Assembly (NCBI GenBank): GCA_026195255.1
Contig: JAPHSS010000019.1
Coordinates: forward strand, 1-64,000
DNA from: Gammaproteobacteria bacterium
Lineage (GTDB): Bacteria > Pseudomonadota > Gammaproteobacteria > SZUA-229
Direction: 5' to 3'
DNA: 64,000 nt
The position numbers were made by a program, and so were the translations under genes. Below are positions 53,371 to 55,966 of this stretch, piece by piece. Numbering within the stretch: the stretch's first letter is position 1; each line of letters opens with the position of its first letter. The notes under the pieces were generated by a model. That model saw only the letters and a program-made list of their open reading frames with translations. It ran no database searches and was not told where the DNA came from.

Positions 53371-53951
53371 CCATTAACAAGGTTATAAATAATTTGCACG
53401 TCTCCTTTCGTGTAAGCCGTCCAGAGTATTGTCTCCAGATCGCCTCTTCCGTGTCTTTAATCATTTATTCTGCTAACCCGAACGAATGTCATGTATTTAT
53501 AGCAGGTAGGGGTTGTTGAAAGCATAGAGTGTTCCAGTTTTAATAAGTGCATATGAAACAGTGACTTATAAAAATAGAATAAAATTTAAAATTATAAAGT
53601 GTAAATTAAACCTGTGATTTAATTGCTTTTAGTAGTTTTATGGCTTTAAAAACAACAGGTTATGCTTACAACCTAAAGTGACGAATTAATTTACACTTGT
53701 TGTTTTTAAAAAGCCGGGGTTGTCTTTTTATTTAAAAACAAGGAGATATGAAAAAAGAGCTGTCGAATATATTTACATAATTAGAAAAGACCATTTCTAA
53801 CCTGTAGCTTATTTATCTCGCTATGGCACCCCCTCATCGGGTAAAGGCAGCCGCCCACTTTTAATGGGCATGGGCGCTCTGTCACTCTAACCCGAGCTAC
53901 CAGAAGATGTAGTAGCCCAGTCCGGTCATTAACCAGTACGCTGATTTGTCA
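53371..53951. other. 580-base gene-free region with a structured element at about 53823-53904
   Basis: The gap lies downstream of adk and upstream of the Sel1 gene, both minus strand. Its left two-thirds are A/T-rich with no convincing gene. AAGGAG and ATG at 53740-53750 open only a 10-codon frame. Around 53823-53904 a G/C-rich block can nest three stems. TCGGGT (53836) pairs with ACCCGA, GGCAG (53846) with CTGTC, and GCCCA (53853) with TGGGC. The block could be an adk 3'-end structure, an RNA leader or a small RNA. I cannot match it to a known riboswitch. Confidence 0.45.
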
Positions 53952-55253
53952 TTACTTAATTTTCTTCAGCGCTTTTTCCAAATCACTTTGCAACTTTGCA
54001 GAAAACTGTTTGCGAAGTAGATCCTTACCTAGCTCTATTTTAATAAGAGCGCTATTTCGTTTTTCGATTTGAATAATTTCATCATTAAGCAATTTAAGCT
54101 CTGCTTTTAGTTGTTTAAGTTCATCTCGAGCATCAACAGGTTTAACTGCTTTCTTTTTAGCAACAGGTTTTTTCCTGGGCGCGGCCTTTGTCGCAGGTTT
54201 AGCTTTTTTTGTAATCGCCTTCTTTTTAGGTGATGCTTTTGAGGCGACAGCTTTTTCAGTGTTTTTCTTTTTAACAGATGGTTTTTTAACAGGTGATTTT
54301 TTAGCAGCGGCTTTTTTTATGGCCGGTTTTCTGTCTGGACTCGTTTTCGGTGTAGCGGCTACTGGTTTGTTAGCTGTTTTTTCAACAGGTGTTTTCTGGG
54401 TACTGGTTTTCACCGGGGGTACTGTCTCGGTCGTTTGTATTTCAGTAACTGGCTTAGGTGATGTTTTAACTGGTAGGGGTGCCGGAGGAGCAGGAGTCGG
54501 TGCCGGAGTTGACGTGGTTTCAGGCTTTGTATCTGGTTGTACATTCGTGGTTTGCTTAACTTTTGCTGCTGGCTTTGCTGCCGCTATATTCATGCTGGTT
54601 GCCGGACGAGCGCTCTTTAATGCTATTTGCAGAGCAGAGAAAATATCTTTTATATCTCCTTTGCCTTCAACAACAGATAACTTGCCCTGGTTTTTATAAA
54701 AGTCAGCCACAGGTTGAGTTTGAGTTTCATATACACGCAAACGTCTGCTAATGGTTTCTTCATTGTCATCCGAGCGATGATGTAGTTGTCCACCGCATTT
54801 ATCGCATTCTTCACCAAGTGCCGGTGGGTTTGTGAATATATTGAATACTTCTCCGCAATCTTCACAGGTTAACCTGCCGGTTAGACGTTGCATCAGGATA
54901 TCAAAGTCAACATCAATTAATACAGATTTCTGTATAGGCATAGATAGCCCGCCAAGCAATTCATCTAATGCCTTCGCCTGTTCTACATTGCGAGGAAAAC
55001 CGTCTAGAATAAAGCCATTTAGAGCATCAGGGCTGCTCAGACGTTCACGGATCATGCCCAGAACCAGGTCATTAGGCACCAGCTGTCCAGCGTCCATAAT
55101 GGTCTTTGCCTGTCGGCCTAATGGTGTTTGCGCTTCTACGGCTGCGCGCAATAGGTCACCAGTAGAAATTTGTGGAATATTTAATTTATCAACTAATAAC
55201 TTGGCTTGTGTGCCTTTACCGGAGCCGGGTGCCCCTAAAAGTACGAGTCTCAT
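53952..55253 (-). CDS. adk: Adenylate kinase with long histone-H1-like basic tail and coiled coil
   Basis: Adk interconverts AMP, ATP and ADP. Residues 1-215 are a complete long-type enzyme: GAPGSGKGTQ P-loop, STGDLLR, LDGFPRN and a zinc LID with Cys130, Cys133, Cys150 and Cys153. Residues from about 216 to 373 are low complexity, first Pro/Thr/Val-rich, then KKAAAKKSP/KKPSVKKK-type repeats like bacterial histone-H1-like proteins. The last 60 residues are a charged coiled coil (ELKQLKAELKLLNDEI). The total of 433 compares with about 215 usual residues. The frame is continuous with no stop. The tail may bind nucleic acid or polyphosphate; that is inference. It diverges from the pyrophosphatase-like gene across 170 bases. 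Confidence 0.93.
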   Translation of the reverse strand: MRLVLLGAPGSGKGTQAKLLVDKLNIPQISTGDLLRAAVEAQTPLGRQAKTIMDAGQLVPNDLVLGMIRERLSSPDALNGFILDGFPRNVEQAKALDELLGGLSMPIQKSVLIDVDFDILMQRLTGRLTCEDCGEVFNIFTNPPALGEECDKCGGQLHHRSDDNEETISRRLRVYETQTQPVADFYKNQGKLSVVEGKGDIKDIFSALQIALKSARPATSMNIAAAKPAAKVKQTTNVQPDTKPETTSTPAPTPAPPAPLPVKTSPKPVTEIQTTETVPPVKTSTQKTPVEKTANKPVAATPKTSPDRKPAIKKAAAKKSPVKKPSVKKKNTEKAVASKASPKKKAITKKAKPATKAAPRKKPVAKKKAVKPVDARDELKQLKAELKLLNDEIIQIEKRNSALIKIELGKDLLRKQFSAKLQSDLEKALKKIK

Positions 55254-55423: not shown

Positions 55424-55966
55424 ATGAGTCTTAATAATCTCCCCTCAGGAGATGATGCGCCACGCGTTATTGGTGTGGTGATTGAAAGTCCCTTGCACGG
55501 CTCACGCGTAAAATATGAAGTAGAAAATGACAACGGCACCCTGATGCAGGATCGTTTCACGGATACCGCGGTATTTTGCCCCTGTAATTATGGTGTTTTG
55601 CCAGACAGGCTTTTTAAAGATAGTTACCCGGTTGACGTATCGGTAACCGAGGGTCCTATGATCTCTGCTTCGGTTAATCGTTGTCACCCGCTGGAAATGT
55701 TAGAGATGGCAAACGAAGCGGGTGGTGATTACAAAGTACTGGCAGTGTCGGTAAGTAAGTTAAACAAGTTATATAATGATATGCTGAGTCGAATTACTCA
55801 TTTCTTTGAGCAATATAAAACACTGGAAACAGGCAAGTGGGCAAAAGTTGAAAACAGGCCTGGCGTTAATCGCCACATGAAGAATTACCCGGGAGTATCG
55901 GGCGTTATAATCGCAAATCTACTTAAGTGTAAAAAAGTGAATATACAAGGCGCGGTTACAGATTAA
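55424..55966 (+). CDS. Family I inorganic pyrophosphatase homologue with altered active site
   Basis: A 180-residue protein that aligns without gaps to E. coli PPase over its first 105 residues. Kept in E. coli numbering are Glu20, Lys29, Glu31, Arg43, Tyr55, Asp65, Asp70, Glu98, Asp102, Lys104 and the Tyr-Lys pair in HFFEQYK. Changed are Asp67 to Tyr (KDSYPVD), Asp97 to Asn (MANEAGGD) and Tyr51 to Cys (FCPCNYG). About eight residues are missing before the last helix. Asp67 and Asp97 are catalytic or metal residues, so pyrophosphatase activity is doubtful. The stop abuts the mrdA start with zero bases between. AAGGTAAGAAGT lies before the ATG. Confidence 0.85.
   Translation: MSLNNLPSGDDAPRVIGVVIESPLHGSRVKYEVENDNGTLMQDRFTDTAVFCPCNYGVLPDRLFKDSYPVDVSVTEGPMISASVNRCHPLEMLEMANEAGGDYKVLAVSVSKLNKLYNDMLSRITHFFEQYKTLETGKWAKVENRPGVNRHMKNYPGVSGVIIANLLKCKKVNIQGAVTD

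Follow-up and report, generated by a model that had tools for sequence, protein, structure and literature searches.

A zinc-LID adenylate kinase with a lysine-rich C-terminal tail in a gammaproteobacterial family: a putative tethered enzyme and its relatives

In the 64,000-nucleotide stretch of DNA that was analysed (the window), one gene encodes an adenylate kinase (Adk) that runs on into a long, lysine-rich tail. As the initial annotation had claimed, a zinc-LID Adk (residues 1–214) is followed in a single open frame by a tail of 219 residues, which contains 22% Lys and 15% Ala and consists of a linker, a basic region and a terminal helix (Table 1). The likeliest reading, to which we give about an even chance of being correct, is that this protein would be an Adk of the housekeeping type whose tail serves as a tether.

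Table 1. Features of the tailed adenylate kinase gene, in coordinates of the window
Feature	Coordinates	Strand	Basis
Whole ORF, tailed adenylate kinase	53952..55253	-	433 aa + stop, ATG start; frame open in all five searched genomes of the genus
Adenylate kinase domain, residues 1-214	54612..55253	-	Profile and structure matches; dN/dS 0.06 vs L003; block pLDDT 86-95
P-loop GAPGSGKGT, residues 7-15	55209..55235	-	Invariant in 17 relatives; all but A8 in 27
Zinc-type LID, residues 127-162, Cys 130, 133, 150, 153	54768..54875	-	Pfam ADK_lid 2.6e-12; cysteines invariant
Pro/Thr-rich linker, residues 215-310	54324..54611	-	Net charge +8; dN/dS 0.68; mostly pLDDT <50 from residue 220
Lys/Ala-rich basic region, residues 311-372	54138..54323	-	Net charge +24; at most 9 Lys/20 residues; dN/dS 0.21
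Conserved C-terminal coiled-coil-like helix, residues 373-433	53955..54137	-	dN/dS 0.10; predicted helix 375-432

The results from profile searches place the N-terminal part firmly among the adenylate kinases. The window protein scores 248.1 bits against TIGR01351 over residues 2–212 (cut-off 168 bits), residues 1–214 score 285.5 bits against NF001380 (cut-off 251), and both Pfam ADK and ADK_lid are matched over their cut-offs. Across 17 relatives in one alignment and 27 in another, the four LID cysteines (C130, C133, C150, and C153) are invariant and, together with them, what we take to be the P-loop and the DGFPR motif are invariant or nearly so. The structural matches of residues 1–214 are adenylate kinases throughout, among the matches listed. 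The domain is shared in full, P-loop and LID cysteines included, with zinc-LID enzymes such as that of Bacillus subtilis (PDB: 1p3j), to which it has 50% identity; in contrast, solved Adk chains reach at most 245 residues (among the 60 listed of 87 matches), whereas the window protein continues for 219 residues beyond the domain. The passed cut-offs and the conservation of the P-loop and LID cysteines bear out the earlier view that the enzyme is intact, and residues 1–214 form a complete zinc-LID (long-type) adenylate kinase, which the conserved residues predict to be catalytically active.

The tail is translated, and its last two parts lie under purifying selection with the linker nearly neutral, because dN/dS relative to the nearest relative (L003; 86% identical) is 0.06 for the enzyme, 0.68 for the linker, 0.21 for the basic region and 0.10 for the helix. 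This is the sole pair close enough to yield all four ratios, which rest mainly on it, dS being saturated or undefined in several other, more distant pairs. Among 14 further pairs, third-position differences exceed both first- and second-position differences in every tail, and the third-position excess runs on through the tail of the window protein. The net charge of the tail is often kept as the sequence drifts (pairs 30/30, 66/65, and 32/31) but not in other pairs (22/62 and 44/127). An assembly or frameshift artefact is ruled out by this coding-type evolution together with a frame that is open in all five searched genomes of the genus. The initial annotation had proposed that reads or peptides confirm the reading frame; codon-level evolution stands in for them here and points to a coding tail, and peptides would be better.

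As to architecture, AlphaFold2 run with 27 sequences returned pLDDT values of 86–95 by block for the enzyme and mostly below 50 for residues 220–371. In being disordered, strongly basic and made up largely of Lys, Ala and Pro, the tail resembles the C-terminal arms of AlgP and PhaF, a likeness of composition and not of alignment. Both Pseudomonas proteins consist of an N-terminal domain and a Lys/Ala/Pro-rich C-terminal arm, with net charges of +55 (AlgP) and +35 (PhaF), and DNA is bound in vitro by an AlgP tail fragment and by KPAA peptides, the similar tail of PhaF being thought to bind DNA (PMC9239181). They differ from the window protein in that they are not adenylate kinases and have regular KPAA repeats. 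The term "histone-H1-like", under which the tail was first described, holds for its composition but not for membership of the Hc2 family, since the model NF038052 (NCBIfam) gave only 24.4 bits over residues 281–379 against a cut-off of 135.

The initial annotation treated the fusion as unusual, but it is not the oddity of one genome: a plain basic tail is widespread in the class, with at least two origins of the tailed Adk overall. In a search of 58 relatives, the window's own genome included, 33 of 37 genomes of the family proved to have a frame long enough for a tailed Adk (≥276 residues), 27 of these frames having been read as protein, each with a basic or helix-ended tail, and six counted by frame length alone. 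The four family genomes without such a frame (G010, G021, G025, and G030) have completeness values of 57–88%. Among 187 genomes sampled across the class, at least 34 carry a basic tail (14 seen in loci from the search of relatives and the class-wide search, and all 20 of the further frames that were fetched because they were long), a lower bound that rests on the frames read. Frame length can mislead, as in G217, where a frame of 559 residues holds an Adk of only 208. In another genome, the Adk frame (L140 in G138) is also extended far at its C-terminus, but the extension is poor in lysine by comparison with the basic tails and may reflect a frameshift or non-coding read-through. Named carriers include Steroidobacter gossypii, metagenome-assembled genomes (MAGs) of Sedimenticola, Thiogranum and Sulfuricaulis, and symbionts of Lamellibrachia and Lucinoma; the tail is absent from the loci of Ectothiorhodospira, Methylophaga, Thioalkalivibrio, and Halothiobacillus. 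Among 95 complete tailed proteins, a set that includes duplicates and leaves out truncated loci and L140, the median net charge is +47 for the tail (range 15 to 128) and -3 for the core, and both the length and the sequence of the tail vary greatly between carriers. The relatives also yielded 54 untailed Adk proteins, and at the scale of these relatives, many of which have an untailed Adk, the tail is dispensable. On a tree of the enzyme domain (128 rows, 76 of them tailed) the presence of the tail requires at least 7 changes, compared with a mean of 40.8 after shuffling. That tree excludes L042 (141 aa), L064 (tailed, but missed by the pattern), L140 (for its non-basic tail) and duplicate Adk domains; both it and the tree described below are quick ones, with 58 of 125 inner branches left open in the first and 20 of 57 in the second, so that numbers of gains and losses are rough.

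A similar tail was gained separately in another class, on a different, short-LID Adk. NCBIfam has a model for a long adenylate kinase, NF010381 (PRK13808.1), the cut-off of which is exceeded in 9 of 299 genomes of the phylum; in each of them the best match joins an Adk of roughly 190 residues to a Lys/Ala tail whose net charge is +33 to +47. All nine lack cysteine in the first 190 residues and have a short LID; the window protein itself scores 190.9 bits, against a cut-off of 426. On a tree of 60 rows (30 hand-picked from the first tree and 30 loci from the NF010381 search) the nine group together (support 99) among 21 short-LID Adks that have no tail, and a long branch, likewise with support of 99, separates the short-LID clade from the window's type of Adk. 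The gain is read as separate because the tailed clade nests among untailed short-LID enzymes, far from the window type. The two designs share the order of Adk and Lys/Ala tail; the short-LID proteins differ in their smaller enzyme, in the lack of LID cysteines and in showing no terminal helix of the window type.

Adenylate kinase is essential in E. coli, and because of this the tailed Adk should be the housekeeping enzyme in species that have no other. A search at E 1e-10 found no other Adk in 14 of 21 tailed genomes, all of which had been picked for being tailed. The window's own genome does encode another zinc-LID Adk, which has no tail (214 aa, 46% identical to the window protein; G000:C27:28079-28732; L002:1501-2142) and could do the housekeeping there. 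Two or three Adks occur in many members of the family.

Neighbouring genes hardly ever have tails of this kind. The 80 named loci contain 621 ORFs of 100 aa or more, of which 29 have basic low-complexity ends: 21 recognised Adks, five Adks missed by the pattern (L045, L048, L061, L064, and L072), and three others (L046, L081, and L109) that we judge to be probably out of frame. Since only Adk and these three doubtful ORFs passed in the 80 loci, we reject the idea that basic tails are a general habit. None of 58 window ORFs passed the same test, which reads the last 80 residues and so misses the window's helix-ended Adk as well. When the window's own genome was searched with the basic region alone, only the window Adk was returned, in a search whose handling of low complexity may hide others.

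These features (the fusion, a coding tail under selection, a charge that is often kept, neighbouring genes almost free of such tails, and recurrence) form the basis for proposing a tether. Points that count against it are the many relatives with an untailed Adk, the great variation of the tail in length and sequence, the separability of basic region and helix, and the untailed Adk in the window's own genome. The enzyme domain would carry out the usual interconversion of ATP, ADP, and AMP, and the disordered linker would serve as a leash. The Lys/Ala region, by its likeness to the arms of AlgP and PhaF, would bind polyanions without specificity, with nucleic acid as the likeliest target, either the nucleoid or RNA and ribosomes, and in the window's family the end helix may pair with itself or with a partner to give a multivalent arm. 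Buffering of the adenylate charge would thereby be kept close to a large consumer of ATP or producer of AMP. We infer the binding of the tail, its target, its oligomerisation and the localisation of the enzyme.

The same lysines might instead hold Adk on granules of inorganic polyphosphate, where it would make ATP together with polyphosphate kinases. Polyphosphate had been among the targets first considered; we regard it as unlikely, although it is the best placed of the alternatives. The tail of the window protein reaches 9 Lys per 20 residues, which is the density of two P. aeruginosa proteins that bind polyphosphate, and the count is 9 or more in 87 of 104 tailed proteins, a set with truncated and duplicate entries. 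These two proteins, SrmB and EngA, resemble the window protein in being enzymes with a lysine-dense C-terminal region, and differ in being other enzymes, in having four consecutive Lys, and in the extent of the regions deleted (60 and 21 residues). In that study, binding of polyphosphate went with nine Lys per 20 residues plus four in a row (PMC12077175); the longest Lys run in the window protein is three. Other work describes the binding of polyphosphate by lysine-rich regions of E. coli YihI and RNase R (PMC12345225), an association of AlgP, which has a similar tail, with polyphosphate granules (PMC9239181) and, on overproduction of PPK1 in E. coli, an increase in polyP:AMP phosphotransferase activity with enhancement of Adk activity (PMC3163519). 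The window's own genome contains one PPK1 and two PPK2 matches. What speaks against polyphosphate as the target in general is that neither PPK1 nor PPK2 was matched in 7 of 19 gammaproteobacterial genomes with a tailed Adk (G058, G094, G112, G135, G156, G176, and G200, among which two pairs share a genus), compared with 1 of 11 genomes taken as untailed. PPK1 was found in 11 and PPK2 in 9 of the 19, the corresponding numbers for the 11 being 9 and 7, and both kinases were found in all four searched tailed genomes of the other class. These 34 genomes were hand-picked, the untailed set being defined by one Adk each with second copies unchecked. The tail does not, on these counts, follow the polyphosphate kinases, which weakens polyphosphate as a general target, makes it less likely, and moves weight to nucleic acid without showing nucleic-acid binding.

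An emphasis on the C-terminal helix, which would dock Adk on a specific partner or dimerise it and leave the basic region as an auxiliary spacer, also strikes us as improbable. AlphaFold2 predicts one helix (residues 375–432) behind the disordered stretch, with a block pLDDT of 67 at its start and 77–91 thereafter. An HMM of the helix built from seven sequences matched 32 of 85 tails at E<0.01, a number that includes the seven seeds and several duplicate rows, and the best E value in 425 shuffled tails was 0.024; chance is thereby ruled out as an explanation of the helix. Its heptads favour such a role in that one of the seven registers is clearly hydrophobic (mean a/d hydropathy +0.91, compared with -1.13 elsewhere, in a periodicity analysis), most clearly in the first half. 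The coiled coil of the earlier description is upheld as a terminal helix in a single-chain prediction, with this one register as the sign of a possible coiled coil. The helix is also found in 27 of the 30 rows of a single clade (SH-aLRT 98), including a subclade (L017, L018, L022, and L024) in which the Lys-rich region has shrunk to 4–7 Lys per 20 residues. Yet no tail outside this family clade matched at E<0.01 among the 85 tested, so most tailed Adks do without the helix, which is recognised only in the window family's clade, and even within it L011, L012, and L023 have a basic tail and no recognised helix. Basic region and helix are separable, since the helix is kept with a weak basic region in some members and is absent from others. 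Just outside the clade, L037 and L112 have tails with charged, possibly helical stretches that fall short of this threshold.

Least probable is a tail without localising role, a low-complexity growth that an abundant enzyme tolerates, that perhaps helps its solubility and that is kept by inertia, which would suit the wide variation in length and sequence, the many relatives without a tail and the near-neutral linker, but which is opposed by the dN/dS of the basic region (0.21) and helix (0.10), by the separate gain on another type of Adk, and by the finding that neighbouring genes almost never have such tails.

Adenylate kinase is generally treated as freely diffusing. In openly licensed PubMed Central literature, searched by titles and the starts of abstracts, no description of a lysine-tailed Adk was found. 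Extending the tether reading, we speculate, tentatively and well short of an even chance, that an H1-like arm has made Adk nucleoid- or RNA-tethered at least twice in bacteria, and that in one gammaproteobacterial family the enzyme is an oligomeric, multivalent scaffold. If so, adenylate-charge control would be spatially organised, even where the tailed Adk is the sole Adk. The recurrence of the arm on Adk, often on the sole copy, makes the site of the bacterial ATP/AMP balance directly testable in laboratory strains, for which tailed, helix-tailed and untailed enzymes offer a natural comparison series.

With respect to the surroundings of the gene, the window adk is divergent to ppa, the identity of which was confirmed, and to genes that we presume to resemble mrdA, rodA, mltB, and rlpA. 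Homologues of ppa and mrdA were found in 57 and 52, respectively, of 140 loci, many of which have short flanks. Searches for phage DNA in the 3' flank gave no match, and none of the 220 plasmid records matched covered 80% of the query. In the AT-rich intergenic region 53585-53710 inverted repeats overlap, one of 25 nt (84%) and one of 16 nt (94%). At gathering thresholds no Rfam family was found in the window, this region included, and at a relaxed threshold the 3' flank gave two weak matches (E values 2.8 and 3.6), far below gathering. Scans for promoters (9 sites against 4.2 expected) and terminators (3 against 2.8) were not relied on.

The adjacent inorganic pyrophosphatase gene (55424-55966, + strand) looks decayed. 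Tyr and Asn stand at what we take to be the counterparts of D67 and D97 (E. coli numbering), a deletion removes about 10 residues around residue 120, and the C-terminal end is divergent. The ppa product is 127 aa in the sister genome (L003), and the 11 checked positions are intact in L004–L006. In a Chromatiales MAG (L047), another ppa beside a tailed Adk also differs at several catalytic positions among those checked. The window ppa is the only PF00719 match in its own genome, where a membrane H+-PPase is also present.
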